This document shows positions 11,620 to 21,309 of a stretch of DNA of 64,000 nt, in pieces. Numbering within the stretch: the first letter of the stretch is position 1; each line of letters opens with the position of its first letter. The notes below the pieces were generated by a model. The model did not search any database and had not been told where the DNA came from. It worked only from the letters and a program-made list of their open reading frames with translations. Source of the stretch: Ancylomarina subtilis (GTDB taxonomy: Bacteria; Bacteroidota; Bacteroidia; Bacteroidales; Marinifilaceae); contig NZ_SHKN01000004.1 in the NCBI RefSeq assembly GCF_004217115.1, positions 1-64,000 of the forward strand, in the 5' to 3' direction. The position numbers and the translations under genes were made by a program.

Positions 11620-11651
11620 AAGCCCTCATCAGAATAATCTGGTGAGGGCTT
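11620..11651. terminator. Bidirectional terminator between the protease and synthetase genes
   Basis: The stem AAGCCCTCATCAGA / TCTGGTGAGGGCTT has one T-G pair and loop ATAA. T-rich tails lie on both sides (ATTTTCT on plus; GTTTTTAG on minus), so it can stop both the plus-strand protease and the minus-strand synthetase operon. Confidence 0.88.
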
Positions 11652-11719: not shown

Positions 11720-14700
11720 CTAAACGGCTTGACAAGGTATCCCCTTCCATTTCGAATTTGAAGGCAAATTTTCTCCTTTCATTACTAATGACAATGGTGC
11801 TATTGATGTATTTCTGTCAATAATGGAATCATATAAAACGATGGACATATTTCCGATATTACAATTTTCCTTTATTCGCAGCGATGATGCTTTCATAATT
11901 CTATCTTCAAACAAATGGTTTTGGATAACAACGCCAGCATTAAGACTAACATTATCCTCTATTTCAACCAAATCGAACTCGGAAAACAAACTTGTTCCCA
12001 TATGCACATTTCTTCCAATTTTACAACCAAGCAAGCGTAAAAAAGGGGCAAAAAATGGTGTTCCTATAAAAGGCGCTAGCATTTGAGCTGTTATACTTTC
12101 GTAGGCTCCGTTTACGGCTTCATTATACCAAACGAATGTTGACCATAGTGGTTTTACTGTCGCTTTTATTCTCCCCATTAGCAGCCACTTCACAAAAACG
12201 ACGATGAGTGAACTTACTATTGCCACCAGAATTGCGAGCAAAGGCAATAAGCCAATCATGCTAAAAATCCCTTGTGTTTCATAAAAGTAATATGCGGTGT
12301 AAAATGTAGATAAAACACCCAGTACCTCAATTGTTGATGGTATAAGGATTCGAAGAAAATCAATCAAATATCTTTGTATGTACAGTTTTAAAGTCGGTTT
12401 AAAAATAACCTTATCATCAAAACCTTTGACAATTTGCCTTCTGGGAAGATTGAAGGATGGGGATCCTAACCAATCGGTACCATCTTCAATTTTCCCACTT
12501 TTTACCGGAGGAACGGACAATACCCCTATCAAACAATTGTCGCCAATACTTGTCCCCACGGGAAGAATGGCACTGTTACCCACAAAACTACGATTACCAA
12601 TTACTGTAATGGAGACTTCCATATAACCATTGTAAAAATGTCGCCCACCTATAATTGATCCATCGGCAAAAAAACTCTCATCGCCAATAATCATAAGTTC
12701 GGGAGAGAATTGTGACACGGTTGATATTTCTGCATTCTTTCCGACTTTAGCCCCCAACATTCTTAGCCAATGAGGAAAAAATATGGTGGTGTAAACTGGT
12801 TTCACCAACATTACACTTAGTCTGATAATACTATCGACAAACCACTTGCGCAAAAAGAACAAACTCTCTGTTTTATACGTTCCCGGAGTAATTTTATTAA
12901 AGACAATCTTCTTAACAATGACTGCTGTAATACAGAAAGAGAGAACTGCCAAGGGACCCGATACAAGAATGCTGGCCATATTGATTAACAGGCTTGAGGA
13001 ATCGAGACCAAACTTGATTAAGACTATTGAAGGGATACCTGCCATCATAAGAAAGGCGAAGAGTGTAAAGATTGCAAACAGGTGCATTATACCCCAAAAG
13101 AAGGGTTTAGACTTGTATGATTTACCCTTTGGCACATTAACTTTTGTTTTTACAGAGGGAGAACCTTGTCGTGATTCATCTGCTGAGATATGTTCATTAT
13201 CCTGCAGGGCTGAAATGTCTCCAATCCTTGAATTATTTCCCATCTTAGTATTCAAACCTATATAAGAGTGAATGCCAACAAAACAGTTGTCGCCTATCTC
13301 AATTTTTCCGATTTTTAAATAGCCATTTTCAATAGAGGTTCCTAATAATTGAGTTTCATTTCCGATAGATGAGTTATTTCCAATGCTGAGGTTATCCCAA
13401 CTTGAACACAAGTGAGTATCGATTGTACAATGACGACCTATTTTCGCCCCCATTAAACAGTAATAAAACGACATCAAAGGACTTCCTGCAAGCAATTGCG
13501 ATCCCGTCATTGCCTGTATTCGATCAGTAAGCCACCATCTATAATAATAGAATCCATTAACAGGATAAATTCCTGGTTTTATTCGACCTATGATTAGCCA
13601 CTTTAAAGCAACTCCCAACAACAGAATAACGGGATACATCAGCATCATGATTCCTGCACTTCCAAAGATTAATCTATTGATGGAAAGCTCATTCTCGGTA
13701 TATTTCAAATAATAAAGGATTAATGCTGCAATGGGTAAAACACCTAGCCCATAAATAAGGTACATGGAGAGTGCCTGCAATGCTTTAATCAATGTCGCAA
13801 TTTTACTTTTGGGTGGCAAACCCAAAGACTCTTCTTCATCAGCAGTTTCGCAAACATTCATCTTCGAGTGGGCCGTATCGGATAGTTTTTCTATGGTAGG
13901 AAAAATATATAAATCACGTATCGCTATCTCAATATTGTGTTTAAATCGGAGTACTGAAGCTACTTTCGCAGCTAGCAGAGAATGCCCTCCCAAATCGTTA
14001 AAGAAATTATCTTTAATTGAAATCTCATCCATTCCAAAAACTTCTTTCCAGACTTCAACCAGTATCTTTTCAGTCCCATTTGAAGGAGGAATGATTTCCC
14101 TATTCATTTTAATCAGTGGGGTCATGGGAATGGGTAACCTTTTTTTATCCACCTTACCACTCGTTAAAAGCGGGAGACCATCAACAACTTCCAAGTAGGT
14201 AGGAATCATATAGGCTGGCAGATGTTGTTCCAACATGCTTAATATCTCATCGAAAATAACAGGTTTTGAACTGTCTTTTAAAACAATATAGGCCACCAGC
14301 TCTTTAATCACGTTTTTCTCAGTTACATTAACTACCGAGCTTGAGACATTGGGGAATTCCCGCAAAACAGATTCGATTTCCGAGAGCTCAATACGATATC
14401 CCCTCACCTTAACCTGTGAGTCGATACGCCCATGAAAGAGGATTTCTTTATTCTCATTCAGACTGACCAAATCACCTGTTTTGTATAGCCTTTCATTTTT
14501 CACTATTCCGTCAACAAATGTATTTCTGGTCAGTTCTTCCTGATTTAAATACCCCTTTGCCAAACCTTTTCCGCCAATGTAAAGTTCCCCCTTATCACCA
14601 TTCAATACGGGCTTTTTGTTTTCATCCAAAATGTAAATGTCATAATTCGGTATTGGCTTTCCAATGGTCACCTTCGCTCCTGCTTTACACTCCCAATATG

Positions 14701-15583
14701 TTGTATTAACAGTGGTTTCAGTTGGTCCATAAACATTTAACATTCGCGCCCCATTTTTTGACCATTTATTAACCAACTCAGGGGGGCAAACTTCACCACT
14801 CAGGATTATTAATTTCACCGAATGTAGTTCCTCATCCATCATACTTAGAAAAGTAGGCACGGTTGACAGAAAAGTGACTTTTTCATTATTAATTAATTTA
14901 ATGGCCTCGCTAGCCAATTTGGTCACCTCATCATTTGCAACAATAAGCGAGGCTCCACATGAGAAAGCCATCCAAATCTCCTCAACCGAGCCATCAAAAC
15001 TGTATGCAAAACCATTGTAAAGACGATCATTGGAATTGAGCTTACAAACTTGTTTAAAGGAGTTGACGAAATGGACAACATTGTAGTGTTGTGCCATGAC
15101 ACCTTTAGGGCGACCGGTTGATCCGGATGTATAAATGATATAAGCCAGATCATCATTTTTAATCTGAACCTGGTTTTCGCCCACTCTTTCCGGAGACAGG
15201 TCATTTAGCTCTGGAGAATTAATGTCGAGCAAACAAGTGTCGATATCTAATTCTGAAAACAGACCTGACTCTGTTAAAATGATTTTTATTTCGGCATCCT
15301 TAATAATGTGTCTTATTCTATCGACAGGAAAGCTCCTGTCTATTGGTACATAAGCTGCGCCAACCTTTAAAATTCCCAACATTGCGACGATAGGCAATTC
15401 GGAGCGTTTAAAATAGATCGCAACCAAATCCTTAGGCTTAACCCCCTTGGCAATAAGATAGTGAGCAAGCTTGTTCGCTCGTTCTTCAATATCTTTATAT
15501 GTAAATTCACAACTCCCACTTTTTACTGCCAGAGCATTTGGAGTTAAACTGGCTTGATCTTCGAATATTTGATGTAAAAGCAT
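11720..15583 (-). CDS. Pls-like membrane NRPS (adenylation - carrier - six-TM acyltransferase-like region)
   Basis: A 1287-residue single-module synthetase. The adenylation domain (about 1-490) has IIYTSGSTGRPKG (149-161), YGPTETT (285-291), YKTGD and the final GK (Lys477). The carrier domain (about 500-575) has the pantetheine Ser535 in LGGHSLL. Three pairs of membrane helices follow (about 604-664, 835-892, 1080-1134), each before a hexapeptide-repeat beta-helix segment (about 710-800, 940-1040, 1185-1270). There is no condensation or thioesterase domain. This order and length match epsilon-poly-L-lysine synthetase (Pls), where three acyltransferase-like domains polymerise the tethered amino acid. 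The pocket residues read DGESISVVNK, close to lysine codes as I recall them. It is the last gene of a tight operon with a PPTase and KamA. The product (beta-lysine or lysine polymer or conjugate) is inference. Confidence 0.88.
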   Translation of the reverse strand: MLLHQIFEDQASLTPNALAVKSGSCEFTYKDIEERANKLAHYLIAKGVKPKDLVAIYFKRSELPIVAMLGILKVGAAYVPIDRSFPVDRIRHIIKDAEIKIILTESGLFSELDIDTCLLDINSPELNDLSPERVGENQVQIKNDDLAYIIYTSGSTGRPKGVMAQHYNVVHFVNSFKQVCKLNSNDRLYNGFAYSFDGSVEEIWMAFSCGASLIVANDEVTKLASEAIKLINNEKVTFLSTVPTFLSMMDEELHSVKLIILSGEVCPPELVNKWSKNGARMLNVYGPTETTVNTTYWECKAGAKVTIGKPIPNYDIYILDENKKPVLNGDKGELYIGGKGLAKGYLNQEELTRNTFVDGIVKNERLYKTGDLVSLNENKEILFHGRIDSQVKVRGYRIELSEIESVLREFPNVSSSVVNVTEKNVIKELVAYIVLKDSSKPVIFDEILSMLEQHLPAYMIPTYLEVVDGLPLLTSGKVDKKRLPIPMTPLIKMNREIIPPSNGTEKILVEVWKEVFGMDEISIKDNFFNDLGGHSLLAAKVASVLRFKHNIEIAIRDLYIFPTIEKLSDTAHSKMNVCETADEEESLGLPPKSKIATLIKALQALSMYLIYGLGVLPIAALILYYLKYTENELSINRLIFGSAGIMMLMYPVILLLGVALKWLIIGRIKPGIYPVNGFYYYRWWLTDRIQAMTGSQLLAGSPLMSFYYCLMGAKIGRHCTIDTHLCSSWDNLSIGNNSSIGNETQLLGTSIENGYLKIGKIEIGDNCFVGIHSYIGLNTKMGNNSRIGDISALQDNEHISADESRQGSPSVKTKVNVPKGKSYKSKPFFWGIMHLFAIFTLFAFLMMAGIPSIVLIKFGLDSSSLLINMASILVSGPLAVLSFCITAVIVKKIVFNKITPGTYKTESLFFLRKWFVDSIIRLSVMLVKPVYTTIFFPHWLRMLGAKVGKNAEISTVSQFSPELMIIGDESFFADGSIIGGRHFYNGYMEVSITVIGNRSFVGNSAILPVGTSIGDNCLIGVLSVPPVKSGKIEDGTDWLGSPSFNLPRRQIVKGFDDKVIFKPTLKLYIQRYLIDFLRILIPSTIEVLGVLSTFYTAYYFYETQGIFSMIGLLPLLAILVAIVSSLIVVFVKWLLMGRIKATVKPLWSTFVWYNEAVNGAYESITAQMLAPFIGTPFFAPFLRLLGCKIGRNVHMGTSLFSEFDLVEIEDNVSLNAGVVIQNHLFEDRIMKASSLRIKENCNIGNMSIVLYDSIIDRNTSIAPLSLVMKGENLPSNSKWKGIPCQAV

Positions 15584-15602
15584 GTTTTGTTTTTTTTGAT
15601 GT

Positions 15603-16325
15603 TTATTTAGATAATAGCTTCATTAAACGACGACTATCGAACTCAATAATATGTGGGGTTTGATTTAGGTTTATCTCCTTATGAGTTACTGACAAGGCAT
15701 AACTTTTGCCAGAGAAACAAATTGTTTTATTGTAAATGTGATTAGGCTGAACTTTATTATTGTACATCGCTGCATAGTATGACTCAGATCGACCAACAAT
15801 ATCGAGACCTTTAAAGTCGAGACCAATTCCCAGTCCCAGGTATTTAGCATAGGCTTCCTTGATGGTCCACAGACGCAAATAATGCATCTGTTTTGACAAT
15901 ATGCTGCTTCGCTGCAATTTTACTATTTCGCTATCAGTAAATACAGTTTGTGCAAGACGGTCATCAATTTTATAATGGTAGGATTCTATATCCAGGCCAA
16001 CTTCATCTTTAGAGGAAATTGCTATCGCAAAAATATCTTCGCAATGCGAAACATTAAAAAACAGTTTGGATTCATAAATGGAATTAACTGTGTATGGTTT
16101 ATTTTCAATCGTTTTTTCAAACTCCCAGTATGCAGGTAATATTCCAAAATCACAGTACTCTGAGAGTAGATATCTTTTTAAAACCTTTGACACAACAATA
16201 CTCATTTTCAATTGATTATTCCCGATTAATGCGATCTCTGTTTTTTCAATCGGTGATAAAACATCCAAAACCTGACACATAGATTGAAGCAATTTTGGAG
16301 TTATTTCTACGATGTAAATCTTCAT
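15603..16325 (-). CDS. 4'-phosphopantetheinyl transferase (Sfp type)
   Basis: A 240-residue enzyme that would transfer phosphopantetheine from coenzyme A to the carrier-domain serine of the adjacent synthetase (Ser535), converting it from apo to holo form. Family motifs are clear: the metal-binding pair Asp112 and Glu114 in EVGLDIESY, and WTIKEAYAKYLGLGIGLDFK (153 onward) with Lys156, Glu157 and Lys161. Length fits Sfp-type enzymes for secondary metabolism rather than the short AcpS type. It starts 3 bases after the kamA stop and ends 19 bases before the synthetase start, so the three are almost certainly one transcript. Its position makes the NRPS the natural substrate. Confidence 0.93.
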   Translation of the reverse strand: MKIYIVEITPKLLQSMCQVLDVLSPIEKTEIALIGNNQLKMSIVVSKVLKRYLLSEYCDFGILPAYWEFEKTIENKPYTVNSIYESKLFFNVSHCEDIFAIAISSKDEVGLDIESYHYKIDDRLAQTVFTDSEIVKLQRSSILSKQMHYLRLWTIKEAYAKYLGLGIGLDFKGLDIVGRSESYYAAMYNNKVQPNHIYNKTICFSGKSYALSVTHKEINLNQTPHIIEFDSRRLMKLLSK

Positions 16326-16328
16326 GAC

Positions 16329-17336
16329 TTATTCCAAAGGGTAACTAAAATATTTATTTTCATAATTTCTAAGAATTACTTCTCCATATTCCTTTGAAAT
16401 GATGGTCTCAGGCATAATAGGGATTTTTCCTCCACCATTAGGTGCATCAATAACCAACTGAGGAACTGCCATTCCTGATGTATGCCCCCTTAATCCTTCG
16501 ATTATATCCAATCCGGTCTGAAGCGAAGTTCTAAAGTGACTAGCTCCTAGTATTAAATCCATCATGTAGATGTAATAGGGTTTTACACGTATCTCAAGTA
16601 GCTTTTGCATCAACAACTTCATGGTCGCAATATCATCGTTAACACCCTTAAGCAAAACGCTCTGATTCCCTAGAGGAATACCAACATTGGCTAATTTATT
16701 ACAAGCTTCGGTCGACTCATCTGTAATTTCATCGGGATGATTAAAATGTGTATTGATATAAAGAGGATGGTGTTGTTTTAGAATTGAACACAACTTATCC
16801 GTAATGCGATTAGGGTTTACAACCGGCATTCTCGTTCCAATTCGAATAATCTGTACATGTTTTATCTTTCTTAAATTTGAAAGTATAAAGCCCAGATTTT
16901 CATCAGATAAGGTTAAGGGGTCGCCACCGGAAACAACCACATCTCTAATCTCAGTATGCTTTTTAATATATTCAAAACCTTCATTCCAATCTTCTTTTGA
17001 AACGGTATCTGTTTTCCCTACTTTCCGTTTTCGGGTACAGAAACGGCAGAACATAGCACATTCGGAAGTTGAGTAAAACAAAGCCCTGTCCGGATAACGG
17101 TGAACAATACATTTAACCGGACTATCGTGCTCCTCTCCTAAAGGATCCGTTATACCAGAATCCTCTAATTCTTTGATAGAGGGCATGGACTGTTTCCAGA
17201 TTGCATCGTTTTTTTCTTTAATAAGGCCCTTGTAGTACTTTGTTATTCTTACAGGATATCTTGAACTTACTAGTTTCAGTTCTTCTGCATCTGTGATGGG
17301 GCTATTCATTTCAAGCTGTACTGTCTCCACTGTCAT
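16329..17336 (-). CDS. kamA: KamA-family radical SAM aminomutase, probable lysine 2,3-aminomutase
   Basis: A 335-residue radical SAM, PLP-dependent aminomutase expected to convert L-lysine to beta-lysine. The [4Fe-4S] motif CX3CX2C is at Cys93, Cys97, Cys100 (ECAMFCRFC). SGGDP (136-140) is the SAM-binding region. GGGK gives the PLP lysine Lys304. Asp260 (MMDL) and Asp297 (VIDAP) sit 37 residues apart, as do Asp293 and Asp330 of clostridial lysine 2,3-aminomutase, which bind the substrate epsilon-amino group; glutamate mutases replace them. The C-terminal zinc-binding tail of the classical 416-residue enzyme is missing, so the length resembles EpmB. No EF-P or EpmA gene is nearby, and the tight linkage to the Pls-like NRPS points to supply of beta-lysine building blocks. 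Product stereochemistry cannot be told. Confidence 0.88.
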   Translation of the reverse strand: MTVETVQLEMNSPITDAEELKLVSSRYPVRITKYYKGLIKEKNDAIWKQSMPSIKELEDSGITDPLGEEHDSPVKCIVHRYPDRALFYSTSECAMFCRFCTRKRKVGKTDTVSKEDWNEGFEYIKKHTEIRDVVVSGGDPLTLSDENLGFILSNLRKIKHVQIIRIGTRMPVVNPNRITDKLCSILKQHHPLYINTHFNHPDEITDESTEACNKLANVGIPLGNQSVLLKGVNDDIATMKLLMQKLLEIRVKPYYIYMMDLILGASHFRTSLQTGLDIIEGLRGHTSGMAVPQLVIDAPNGGGKIPIMPETIISKEYGEVILRNYENKYFSYPLE

Positions 17337-17409
17337 ATCAACATTTTTAGTTCTTGTTAAAAATCTATATGACTCTTGGACTCAATAAACGAGCCCATAG
17401 TTCACAAGC

Positions 17410-17444
17410 ATTGGCGAACGACATGTATCAATTGGTGAACGACA
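17410..17444 (-). promoter_or_regulatory. Candidate LytTR regulator binding site upstream of kamA
   Basis: A 14-base direct repeat ATTGGCGAACGACA (17410-17423) and ATTGGTGAACGACA (17431-17444) differs at one base, with a 21-base period. On the kamA strand the half-sites read TGTCGTTCACC and TGTCGTTCGCC, with GTT cores 21 bases apart. LytTR proteins bind 9-base direct repeats around a GTT core separated by 12-13 bases, which this fits. The site ends about 74 bases before the kamA start, a sensible activator position. The LytTR gene itself begins the next upstream operon. Confidence 0.6.
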
Positions 17445-17564
17445 AAGAAAGGCAGAAAGGAAGGGGTAATAAGTGGAGAAAACTCCAATTAAAAGACATT
17501 AATTAGTACTGCATATTTAATTACGTAAAGCAAGTTGTATAAATATGCATGAATACACAAATTG

Positions 17565-17770
17565 ATGTCCTTGCCGGACGGGCTTGTACTTTTTTCTTGA
17601 AAGAAAAGTACCAAAAATTCAAGACTGCGGCATTCGCTGACCCATTACGACTTAAAGGCTAAACGAAATGAACTCGCTACGCTCAAACAGCATTTCGTTT
17701 TTAACGCCTTTTTCATCTATGGGACCCCAGCTGCCATTGCCGATGTCGTCATGAGAAAATATAATTCATA
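17565..17770. repeat. Palindromic dispersed-type element
   Basis: Contains GTACTTTTTTC / GAAAAGTAC around 17589-17613 and a large hairpin with perfect 10-base arms AAACGAAATG (17661-17670) / CATTTCGTTT (17691-17700), extended by AAAGGC and GCCTTT outside. Sequence of this kind recurs in Bacteroidota intergenic regions and resembles in style the hairpins at 4997-5520. No gene runs through it. It separates the regulator operon from the kamA operon. Confidence 0.55.
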
Positions 17771-17887
17771 AGCTTAATCAAGCTATTCGCATTTATGATA
17801 AAAGTTGAATATGCATCAATAATAACGCACTCCCAAACTGTTGGGTGAACAGCCCGTAAGGATCAAAACTGAACTGAAAACGAAGTT

Positions 17888-18601
17888 TTAGCCCTTCAAA
17901 AGATCTCTAAACTTATTTAGATAGACACGACCGACAGGGATTTCAGAATGGCCAATGGTAATTCTGCTGTTCATGAAATAATCAATCTTGCTTAAGGCTA
18001 CCACGAAGGATTTATGCACTTGAATAAATTGATCACTGGGCAGTTCTTCGAGCACAGATTTTAAACTTCGCAGAACGATATGACACTTGTTTACTGTAAA
18101 TATCTTCACATAATTGTCCATCGCCTCAAGATAGGTGATGTCCTGTAATTTAATCTTAAAGCTTTTGTAATCAACCTTAACTGTTATCGACTCCCCGTCT
18201 GCAGCCCTAGGTATCGTTTTACTGCTAGTCAAGCTCAACTGTTTTTTAGCTTTTTGAACTGCCTGATGAAACCGTTCAAAATCATAGGGCTTAAGAAGGT
18301 AATCTATGGCTTCCAGGCTGTAACTTTCAACTGCATATTTACTGTAAGCCGTTGTGAATATGACCAAAGGCTTCTTCTCAAGATTCTTAATCAGCTGTAT
18401 ACCCGAAAACTCAGGCATATTGATATCAATAAAGATAATATCAGGGAGATTGTTTTTCAGATAAGAATAAGCCTCAATGGGGTTGTTGAAGCTTTCAAGC
18501 AAAATTAATGAGGGTATGCGGTCGCAATACGATTCAATTAAGCGTAAAGCTCTTGGTTCATCATCAATGGCAATGCAGGTTATGCGAGTATTATAGGTCA
18601 T
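17888..18601 (-). CDS. LytTR-family response regulator
   Basis: A 237-residue two-component regulator. The receiver domain (about 5-125) has the acidic pocket Asp13-Asp14, phosphoacceptor Asp59 in IIFIDINMPEF, Thr83 in FTTAY and Lys104 in LLKPYDF. The LytTR DNA-binding domain (about 140-237) is recognisable from KVDYKSFKIKLQDITYLEAMDNY and IQVHKSFVVALSKI. It begins 2 bases after its kinase partner, so they are co-translated. It is the nearest regulator to the kamA-PPTase-NRPS operon, on the same strand 550 bases upstream, and a repeat of LytTR geometry precedes kamA. Control of that operon is therefore a reasonable inference. Confidence 0.93.
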   Translation of the reverse strand: MTYNTRITCIAIDDEPRALRLIESYCDRIPSLILLESFNNPIEAYSYLKNNLPDIIFIDINMPEFSGIQLIKNLEKKPLVIFTTAYSKYAVESYSLEAIDYLLKPYDFERFHQAVQKAKKQLSLTSSKTIPRAADGESITVKVDYKSFKIKLQDITYLEAMDNYVKIFTVNKCHIVLRSLKSVLEELPSDQFIQVHKSFVVALSKIDYFMNSRITIGHSEIPVGRVYLNKFRDLLKG

Positions 18602-18603
18602 GC

Positions 18604-19608
18604 TTACAAATTTATTGACAAATCAACCTGATAGCTATTTGTTTCATGGTTAATTCTTAGATCATGCTTCCCGGGATAAATTAAGGCAAGTCTTTTCTTA
18701 ACATTGTCTAAGCCACTCTGAGTTCCATCTGCTTCCTTATTCGTAAAAATACCATTCCTAACCTGAAAACTCAAATGATTCTTTTCCACTCTTAATTTTA
18801 TATTGATTTCCGTATCGGAACTGGAGCTTACGCCATATTTAAAGGCATTTTCGATAAATGGGATTAATAACAAGGGTGCAATCATCACCTCCCCATTGTC
18901 TACAGAGAGATCGAAATTCAGATGGGTTTTATGGGGCAGTCGTAGTTTCTGCAGTTCAATATAGCCTTGTATATAACTAATTTCCTGGTCCAAACTAACA
19001 TATTCTGATTTTGCATCAGTCAGAACATATCGCATTAAGTTCGATAGTGACATGATTGCTTTGGGCGCCAGATCTGTTTTCTCAATAGCTTCATAATAGA
19101 TCGAATTAAGACTATTGAAAAGGAAGTGGGGGTCTATTTGTGACTTTAATAGTGACAGCTCTGCCTTGTTTTTTTCGCTACTCATCTTTTGGCTTGACTT
19201 ACGAAGCTGAGATGTAATTTCAAGAATGTTGATTGCCAATACCACAAAAAACAATATAGACAAGCCCTGTCTCATTCTATTTAGCCGATGAGCGTCACTA
19301 ATGAAAAAGTTTGCCTCTGAATCAGTTTCCTGTAAGATCTTAAAAATCAGCTGTGGTAAATACAAGTACACTAAAAAACATATAATGACGACAATGATAT
19401 AAACAATGCTCTTTTTCTGCAGAAGATAGATACGAGTAATGTAATAAATGGGGATGAGCAAAAGGCATGAGAAATAATAATATTCCGGAGCTACAGTACT
19501 TACGCGTTCAAAACTATTAAAAAGAAATGGGGGCAATAAAAACAGTAGAATCCAAGCAACCGTATGGAGAATTATTTTTTTTGTGATATCTAATCTAATT
19601 GAAAGCAT
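18604..19608 (-). CDS. LytS/YehU-type sensor histidine kinase
   Basis: A 334-residue membrane sensor kinase. Four membrane helices (about 13-31, 46-63, 68-92, 116-134) form the input region with very short loops and no extracytoplasmic sensor domain. The His-kinase domain of the LytS class follows: LLKSQIDPHFLFNSLNSIYYEA with phosphorylatable His161, then the ATP-binding N-box PFIENAFKYGV and a G-rich QSGLDNVKKRL. It would phosphorylate the LytTR regulator encoded just downstream. The signal is probably sensed within or at the membrane; nothing in the sequence names it. Confidence 0.93.
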   Translation of the reverse strand: MLSIRLDITKKIILHTVAWILLFLLPPFLFNSFERVSTVAPEYYYFSCLLLIPIYYITRIYLLQKKSIVYIIVVIICFLVYLYLPQLIFKILQETDSEANFFISDAHRLNRMRQGLSILFFVVLAINILEITSQLRKSSQKMSSEKNKAELSLLKSQIDPHFLFNSLNSIYYEAIEKTDLAPKAIMSLSNLMRYVLTDAKSEYVSLDQEISYIQGYIELQKLRLPHKTHLNFDLSVDNGEVMIAPLLLIPFIENAFKYGVSSSSDTEINIKLRVEKNHLSFQVRNGIFTNKEADGTQSGLDNVKKRLALIYPGKHDLRINHETNSYQVDLSINL

Positions 19609-19827: not shown

Positions 19828-21309
19828 CTATTTTGTCGTGATAATCACCACGCCATATTTTCCTTTATCACCATATACAGCCTCAGCGGCTGCACCTTTC
19901 ATCACATTCATTTCTTTAATATTCTTAGGATCAATATGCATCATATCTTCTGTGATTTTTCCATCAATAATATACAAAGGTGATTGTGTGTTCTCTGTGC
20001 TTCTAAAGACCTCTCTTTGTACGGGTTTGTACTCAACGGGAGCTTTATATCGTATTAAATTATCAGCAATTACCTCGCCTTTCAACTTTCGTATAATATA
20101 CGCAATAGTCTGATTGTATGCTTCAACCTGTCGAAAAAATATCGGTGTCCGATCTTCAGAAGCTTTAGCAATCAATTTATAACTCTCAATCCGGTAATCA
20201 CAATATCTTTTCAATAGAGCATTTCGTTGATATATCTCTTCTGAGAAACCTGACATTTCATCGAGCTTTAAAATGAGATCTTTGCATTTTTGCCAATTGG
20301 GAATGCCATCCTTATTGATTGCATCCAAATTTGCCTCAGTTATATACTGAGGATAAACACTTAAGGCTTTTTGCTCCAACTCAACAAATTCAGACATATG
20401 CGTTTCGTATATAACTGATATTTTCGGTGATCTTAGAACAATGAAACCACAACACACAATGAAGATAAAAGTCAACCCCGGAATAAGCAAGCCTTTCAGC
20501 TTAGCTTCCTGATTTGAGAGACTGGGATAAAACGAAAAGCCCAAAAGTATACCCGAAAACAAACCACCAATATGTGCCGCATTATCAATACCTCCTTTTA
20601 AACCAAAAAGCAGATTGTATCCCACAAAAATTAGAATACTCACCAGAATTCCTTTCTTACTTTCCTTGTCAATCAAATTGGTTGTTAGCAAGGCAAGATA
20701 CACCCCATACAAACCAAATATAGCGCCCGATGCACCTGCACTCACAATCATATCGTGCCAAGCCAAACTAAGGAGACTACCTGCTATCCCAGTTAAGATG
20801 AAAGCAAAACCCAGTTTCCATTTTCCAATGATGGGCTCCAACAACAAACCAATATATAGGAGCGCATACATATTAAACAAGAGGTGAATCAGTCCAATGT
20901 GCAGAAAACAATTACTTAGCAATCGCCAGTATTGTCCCTGAAAAGTTAGAGTTGTAAAGTTGGCGCCCCAAGCTACCAAATTCTCAACTGTTGGGTCGAT
21001 TAAATGCACTCCGGAAAGCACCATGGAAATAAATACCAAAACACAAAAAATGATGATAATAGGACTCATAAAAAAGCCTGGCTTGGGAGTCAGTAGCTCA
21101 AAAAAGCCAATGGTTTTCTCAGCCAATAGTCCTTTCTTTGCCTCGGGTGGTTGATAAACGTAAACCTCCTCATTATTACCTGTAAAATCAGGACATTCTT
21201 CTTCGAAATCTGCCTTAGCGTTTGTTAAGCCACACACAATACCTTGCCTGGTATCGAACTTTGACTTGTCACAAACCTTACAAAATTTAACACGTTCTTC
21301 TCTTGTCAT
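19828..21309 (-). CDS. Rhomboid intramembrane serine protease with zinc-ribbon-like head and plug-like tail
   Basis: A 493-residue membrane protease. Residues 1-45 carry four cysteines (10, 13, 26, 39) in a ribbon-like pattern. The rhomboid core spans about 80-295 with HLLFNMYAL (Asn146), catalytic Ser194 in GASGAIFG and catalytic His246 in NAAHIGGL, so the serine-histidine dyad is complete. A cytoplasmic or periplasmic linker (about 300-435) follows. The last 55 residues (SPLYIIDGKI... EMNVMKGAAAEAVYG... GVVIITTK) look like the end of a TonB-dependent receptor plug (SusC type, usually IEVLKGASATAIYG-GVILITTK). The fusion is unusual; a protein-interaction role is inference. It appears to be transcribed alone upstream of the kinase gene. 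Confidence 0.88.
   Translation of the reverse strand: MTREERVKFCKVCDKSKFDTRQGIVCGLTNAKADFEEECPDFTGNNEEVYVYQPPEAKKGLLAEKTIGFFELLTPKPGFFMSPIIIIFCVLVFISMVLSGVHLIDPTVENLVAWGANFTTLTFQGQYWRLLSNCFLHIGLIHLLFNMYALLYIGLLLEPIIGKWKLGFAFILTGIAGSLLSLAWHDMIVSAGASGAIFGLYGVYLALLTTNLIDKESKKGILVSILIFVGYNLLFGLKGGIDNAAHIGGLFSGILLGFSFYPSLSNQEAKLKGLLIPGLTFIFIVCCGFIVLRSPKISVIYETHMSEFVELEQKALSVYPQYITEANLDAINKDGIPNWQKCKDLILKLDEMSGFSEEIYQRNALLKRYCDYRIESYKLIAKASEDRTPIFFRQVEAYNQTIAYIIRKLKGEVIADNLIRYKAPVEYKPVQREVFRSTENTQSPLYIIDGKITEDMMHIDPKNIKEMNVMKGAAAEAVYGDKGKYGVVIITTK

Follow-up and report, generated by a model that had tools for sequence, protein, structure and literature searches.

Can a member of the Bacteroidota make a polymer of beta-lysine with a gene set of its own? 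The question is raised by a 64,000-nucleotide stretch of Ancylomarina subtilis DNA (contig NZ_SHKN01000004.1, positions 1 to 64,000; hereafter the window) from a genus of the Marinifilaceae, Bacteroidota, in which three minus-strand genes follow one another closely, separated by 3 and 19 bases. They encode a lysine 2,3-aminomutase-like enzyme (kamA), a 4'-phosphopantetheinyl transferase (PPTase) and a synthetase of the Pls/PosA family of nonribosomal peptide synthetases (NRPSs). The family matches of all three proteins are far beyond chance, and the DNA itself shows how the genes are ordered, which domains and conserved active-site residues they encode, what the pocket code is and where the island ends. 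An earlier note had described these genes as an operon at 11720-17336; the open reading frames (ORFs) bear out its arrangement, coordinates and gaps, but the unit was drawn too short, the island being a set of five genes (synthetase, PPTase, kamA, LytTR regulator and histidine kinase) at 11720-19608. Based on the comparisons below, we consider it very likely that the product of this island is a chain of beta-lysine, a cationic polymer or oligomer held together by isopeptide bonds.

Pocket code of the synthetase

The synthetase matched the NCBIfam model TIGR02353 (Pls/PosA NRPS terminal domain) over residues 602-1283 with 597 bits against a cut-off of 423, and AMP-binding (residues 7-346), AMP-binding_C (402-477) and PP-binding (508-569) matches precede it, placing an adenylation (A) domain, a carrier and the terminal domain in a single chain as in other Pls/PosA proteins. 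The carrier motif DLGGHSL is intact, and the fold of the A domain was confirmed by solved structures, with residues 6-487 matching 7wew at 2.8e-69. We take 7wew to be the A-domain structure of Streptomyces albulus Pls.

The ten pocket positions, placed by alignment to gramicidin synthetase A, read DGESISVVNK in the window. PMC10522769 gives the same code for the Streptoalloteichus hindustanus enzyme that makes epsilon-poly-beta-lysine, and also for a Methylomarinum protein that is itself untested. In our own alignment both S. hindustanus genes have V, not I, at position 5, and the match is therefore ten of ten by PMC10522769 and nine of ten by our reading of the full-length gene (L097). The code given for PosA, which takes ornithine, is DMEHNGTVSK; lysine enzymes have Ala at position 2, and the Asp/Glu pair of the PosA pocket binds diamino acids (PMC10522769). 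By the rule in that paper, Asp at position 1 and Glu at position 3 would accommodate two amines, and the window synthetase has both, as D197 and E201.

A second Ancylomarina (L021) shares the code DGESISVVNK, and its kamA, PPTase and synthetase genes are arranged as in the window. Ten further Bacteroidia relatives have other codes: nine read DMEHNGS[VI][TS]K, which is ornithine-like, and one (L031) reads DAESIGTVIK, which is lysine-like and differs from the window code at positions 2, 6, 7 and 9. The nine PosA-like synthetases with the ornithine-type code (L022-L030) have a PPTase-like gene in the fetched stretch in six cases (L022, L024, L025, L026, L029, L030), and the DMEH-coded L022 matches 8g95 and 8g97 at 4e-108 versus 2e-69 for the window synthetase; these two structures, labelled just 'dimodular NRPS', we assume to be PosA.

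Linkage of kamA to the DGES code

We searched a collection in which each species is represented by a single genome. The DNA pattern used, for FDG..EE[IMV]W, fixes pocket positions 1-3 alone and is exact at the codon level; records near the window genome may be left out of this collection. The pattern gave 65 loci; 31 without an A-domain match were treated as chance hits and discarded. All 34 synthetase loci that were kept, from many phyla, read DGES[IV]S[VA]VN(K), the last position being cut off in two. A kamA gene stands beside the synthetase in 24 of the 34, in the locus itself in 21 and in wider stretches in three more (L058, L060, L039), L058 having its kamA on a separate contig together with a PPTase gene and the start of a synthetase. 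This count rests on searches of the loci and wider stretches; the neighbour list misses some kamA genes through ORF pruning. The gap was at most 1.2 kb in the 17 linked loci measured, and a PPTase gene joins kamA and the synthetase in L034 and L036 (weak PPTase matches, 23-25 bits), L054, L063 and L074, and, by wider stretches, in L058 and L060. No kamA was found in the fetched stretches of the ten Bacteroidia synthetases with other codes (L027 cut short on one side), and the difference, 24 of 34 versus 0 of 10, gave p = 7e-5 in a Fisher test that ignores kinship. Six searched genomes have more than one TIGR02353 protein, and their 11 extra copies, two of them under the cut-off and all absent from the motif scan with their codes unread, had no KamA match within 20 kb.

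The earlier note had proposed a beta-lysine monomer, adding that a non-basic pocket or homologues with an unlinked kamA would speak against it. The monomer is supported by the pocket code, whose Asp and Glu suit a diamino acid, and by a kamA linkage that appears to follow the DGES code and not the family as a whole. Unlinked homologues do occur (10 of 34 loci), set against the 24 that are linked and the KamA-like gene found elsewhere in eight of the nine genomes with unlinked loci. An aminomutase gene with the synthetase, a feature of the beta-lysine subgroup, is present in both the window and L021. The view that the family is mainly actinobacterial is contradicted by PMC10522769. In a survey of 395 genomes of the class, drawn from a larger group, 11 had a TIGR02353 protein over the cut-off, as did 2 of 56 in the family. 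The DGES-coded case was found in two Ancylomarina genomes alone, with no other found in the phylum.

One gene family recurs in five DGES loci (L068, L085, L101, L105 and L108); its member in L105 is an AAT-type acyltransferase/hydrolase (PF03417), possibly a trimming, releasing or resistance enzyme.

PMC10522769 places the epsilon-poly-beta-lysine synthetases on a small branch of their own and names one characterised producer, the actinobacterium S. hindustanus, whose enzyme is also covered in PMC9606270. We built a tree of 37 synthetases, comprising 28 DGES-coded proteins chosen by their code (the window, L083 and 26 more that are 1000 amino acids (aa) or longer, some cut at the C-terminus) and nine others (seven PosA-coded, L031, and L111 with its code unread); shorter DGES loci and the PosA-coded L025 and L027 were left out, and the root was set at the midpoint. 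The 28, with S. hindustanus among them, formed a single group with support of 100/100 versus the nine others. The two Ancylomarina synthetases branch deeply as a separate line; their identity to the other 33 loci is 38-49%, and no donor can therefore be named. S. hindustanus has a further DGES-coded A-domain ORF of 599 aa (L072, 4363-6159), with no polymerisation domain found beside it.

Several observations weigh against a beta-lysine product. Between similar diamino acids, the codes vary at only a few pocket positions. For ten of the 34 loci, no kamA was found in the stretch covered (L035, L051, L062, L065, L066, L072, L090, L092, L093 and L097), three of these stretches being short (L066 at a contig end, L072 an 8-kb locus, L051 a 9.9-kb contig); the ten lie in nine genomes, eight with a KamA-like gene elsewhere and one, G457 (L066), with none. 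Some members could therefore use alpha-lysine, or beta-lysine could be supplied in trans. In L039, the linked kamA is a 130-aa piece where a contig begins; a second KamA query alone detected it, and the window KamA had no match in that genome. The S. hindustanus polymer was found via a lysine 2,3-aminomutase gene adjacent to the synthetase gene (PMC10522769), an adjacency that we did not reproduce in the deposited genome: a stretch reaching 11.8 kb upstream and 3 kb downstream of L097 showed no kamA, L097 being the full-length gene with the DGES code that we take to encode the characterised enzyme, and of the two KamA-like genes in this genome one lies 33 kb from this synthetase and the other on another contig. 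Finally, no exporter or resistance gene was seen among the five genes of the Ancylomarina island.

An ordinary epsilon-poly-alpha-lysine, with kamA serving some other role, would suit a family that includes alpha-lysine enzymes and a pocket with the Asp/Glu pair by which PosA binds diamino acids (PMC10522769). We nevertheless regard it as unlikely, because the lysine-like L031 departs from the window code at the four positions given above and has no kamA in its fetched stretch, because kamA accompanies the DGES code across unrelated phyla, and because the genome holds another lysine 2,3-aminomutase, in an apparent lysine-fermentation cluster.

The polymerisation domain

Hydrophobic segments in the C-terminal part of the synthetase fall into three groups, and an AlphaFold model of residues 597-1287 (691 residues, 18-row alignment, mean pLDDT 82, pTM 0.85) shows two long helices followed by a left-handed beta-helix, in three repeats; three membrane-helix pairs and three beta-helix segments are a feature of the Pls/PosA family. 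Foldseek related the model to hexapeptide acyltransferases, for example maltose O-acetyltransferase and serine acetyltransferase (best E 4e-5, with low query coverage). Hexapeptide acyltransferases are trimers with active sites between the subunits, and the three-fold model is consistent with such a trimer merged into a single polypeptide. PosA itself has approximate three-fold symmetry in a single joint domain (PMC10522769). The layout read by the earlier note, an A domain, a carrier and three repeats of two transmembrane helices plus a beta-helix, agrees with both the family matches and this model. In the third repeat, the fixed positions of the motif QxHLFEDRxxK are invariant in every covering sequence of the 37 compared synthetases, some of which are cut short, and His1223 is a candidate catalytic base.

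Might one or a few beta-lysines instead be added to another molecule, as a conjugate or a tailored lipid, with no homopolymer formed? Streptothricin chains of 1-7 beta-lysines are reported to exist, and the modelled C-terminal fold appears to resemble beta-helix acyltransferases that take other acceptors. The domain, however, belongs to the family of the polymerising Pls and PosA and has the conserved motif intact, and none of the five island genes resembles a maker of another scaffold, which makes such a product quite improbable.

The aminomutase

KamA scored 314 bits against TIGR00238 (cut-off 199), and its best model was lysine 2,3-aminomutase (the AblA equivalog TIGR03820) at 456 bits, under the cut-off of 525; we file it only as a KamA-family (TIGR00238) enzyme resembling lysine 2,3-aminomutase. 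Aligned to 2A5H, it keeps the Cys triad, R134, D293, D330 and K337, of which we take R134, D293 and D330 to be the lysine-binding residues and K337 the pyridoxal phosphate (PLP) lysine. Among the linked KamAs, 22 of 24 cover every one of these sites, and each of the 22 has the conserved residues; that of L096 is partial, with D, D and K seen, and that of L099 is unreadable.

The second lysine 2,3-aminomutase of the genome has 427 aa and lies in a cluster reading as lysine fermentation, its neighbours presumably being kdd, kce, kal, kamD and kamE. We rejected the operon KamA as the genome's only or housekeeping lysine 2,3-aminomutase because this longer enzyme sits in such a cluster. A KamA tree, built without the fragments of L096 and L099 and with few outgroups and some long branches, had a split (96/90) with the second enzyme and that of the window on one side and 15 other KamAs (14 linked) on the other. 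These sequences suggest that aminomutase genes joined DGES-coded synthetases more than once. In S. hindustanus, the KamA-like protein encoded 33 kb from the synthetase carries Thr at the position of the second lysine-binding Asp, and the one on the other contig groups with KamAs linked in other actinobacteria.

A role for KamA as an EpmB-like enzyme in the beta-lysylation of elongation factor P, beside the synthetase by chance, is barely credible: KamA is short and matches the EpmB model TIGR03821, but at 248 bits it falls under the cut-off of 369 and outside that family, the lysine 2,3-aminomutase model scores higher, the genome has no EpmA over the cut-off (best 227 bits, cut-off 287), and KamA and the synthetase are present or absent together in the genomes compared at the site.

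In the beta-lysine pathway that we propose, KamA would convert L-alpha-lysine to beta-lysine, the PPTase would arm the carrier domain, and the A domain would activate beta-lysine and load the carrier. The C-terminal domain, as a membrane-embedded, three-in-one left-handed-beta-helix acyltransferase, would then build epsilon-poly-beta-lysine by linking each unit through its distal amine to the carboxyl of its neighbour. We infer the substrate, the kind of bond, the length of the chain, its export, the regulation and the biological role from the genes.

The island and its regulation

The features of the island are collected in Table 1. The PPTase matched ACPS with 55 bits (cut-off 25), and among five genomes of the genus two PPTases were found in each of the two that carry the island (G000, that of the window, and G004) and one in each of G001-G003.

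Table 1. Coordinates of the island genes, synthetase domains and upstream repeat in the window
Feature	Position	Strand	Details
Synthetase, Pls/PosA family, predicted epsilon-poly-beta-lysine synthetase (A - carrier - membrane polymerisation domain)	11720-15583	-	1287 aa; TIGR02353, pocket code, tree
Adenylation domain, residues 7-477	14153-15565	-	pocket D197 G198 E201 S240 I260 S262 V284 V292 N293 K477
Carrier (PP-binding) domain, residues 508-569	13877-14062	-	DLGGHSL attachment motif
C-terminal polymerisation domain, (two membrane helices + left-handed beta-helix) x 3	11735-13780	-	alignment, model, Foldseek
QxHLFEDRxxK motif, residues 1221-1231	11891-11923	-	candidate catalytic His1223
4'-phosphopantetheinyl transferase, extra PPTase of the genome	15603-16325	-	240 aa; ACPS match
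KamA-type lysine 2,3-aminomutase, short form	16329-17336	-	335 aa; Cys triad, R102, D260, D297, K304 (2A5H numbering R134, D293, D330, K337)
Paired direct repeat GTCGTTCACCAAT-8-GTCGTTCGCCAAT	17410-17443	-	proposed LytTR regulator binding site
LytTR response regulator, member of the island	17888-18601	-	family match; presence/absence with the island
Sensor histidine kinase (His_kinase PF06580), member of the island	18604-19608	-	family match; presence/absence with the island

In the sister genome G002, the flanking proteins are 86-99% identical and all of 11720-19608 is gone as a single piece, with htrA directly adjoining the rhomboid-like gene found at 19828 in the window (both genes named by eye). 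Ancylomarina sp. DW003 (G004; L021/L083) has all five island genes in the same place, plus a gene that the window lacks, encoding a DUF6515 protein with a signal-like start (L021, 4285-4857). No synthetase over threshold was found in G001-G003; the region is rearranged past htrA in G001, and a search of G003 gave no htrA match of full length. A close orthologue of the regulator was found only in G000 and G004 (86%), the next best being 44%.

The sequence GTCGTTCRCCAAT occurs twice with a spacer of eight bases, 73 bases upstream of the kamA ATG; the pair has a single occurrence in the genome and is kept in G004. Its 21-base period suits a LytTR regulator, and the two-component pair next door therefore probably controls the operon through this repeat. 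A segment of some 330 bases that lies between the paired repeat and the regulator gene (17460-17800) is missing in L021; it matches a dispersed repeat, of which four partial copies (74-78%) and some shorter ones occur elsewhere in the genome. A strong, terminator-like hairpin lies between htrA and the synthetase gene (11620-11651); the island-free G002 has a near-identical hairpin after htrA, and that of the window therefore probably belongs to htrA. As evidence of recent arrival, base composition was uninformative, because the G+C content of the operon (0.34-0.38) is close to that of the window (0.369). Six peptide patterns found no relative on viral contigs.

Significance and comparison with known systems

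Taken more broadly, beta-lysine polymers may be old and widespread in many phyla, with the aminomutase having joined the synthetase at least twice and the Ancylomarina island representing a self-contained version under two-component control, with its own monomer-making and carrier-arming enzymes; we offer this picture tentatively, as slightly short of an even chance. Searches of the open-licence PubMed Central literature found no paper on a beta-lysine polymer in Bacteroidota, nor on Ancylomarina with 'nonribosomal peptide'. A compact and complete five-gene set in a marine Gram-negative bacterium should be simple to express, and a sister genome without the island, together with a candidate signal system, offers a route to when and why bacteria make such polymers. 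The short pocket motif combined with kamA linkage also brought out candidates for this product type in many phyla.

Among known systems, 2A5H, which we take to come from Clostridium subterminale, shares with the window KamA the radical SAM Cys triad and the Arg, Asp, Asp and PLP-Lys positions, whereas the window enzyme is about 50 residues shorter at the C-terminus and has Asp for Cys268. Cys268 presumably belongs to the zinc site, which would therefore be missing in the window KamA. The S. hindustanus epsilon-poly-L-beta-lysine synthetase, reportedly the subject of a primary paper in ACS Chem Biol 2022, 17:171, has the same domain order as the window synthetase, is 44% identical to it over 1283 columns and falls in the same tree group. 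No kamA was found beside the deposited S. hindustanus synthetase, whereas the window has kamA and a PPTase gene in the operon and a LytTR pair adjoining. Pls, the epsilon-poly-L-alpha-lysine synthetase, resembles the window synthetase in architecture, family and the 7wew match, and to our knowledge the route to its product needs no aminomutase. According to PMC10522769, lysine enzymes have Ala at pocket position 2, where the window synthetase has Gly. PosA of Acinetobacter baumannii, which makes delta-poly-L-ornithine, shares the three-part architecture and the C-terminal family but differs in its code, DMEHNGTVSK, and in its single-gene operon (PMC10522769). Cationic homo-poly-amino-acid synthetases are a known class, and what the Ancylomarina island adds is a predicted member of the epsilon-poly-beta-lysine branch, the one found in its phylum.

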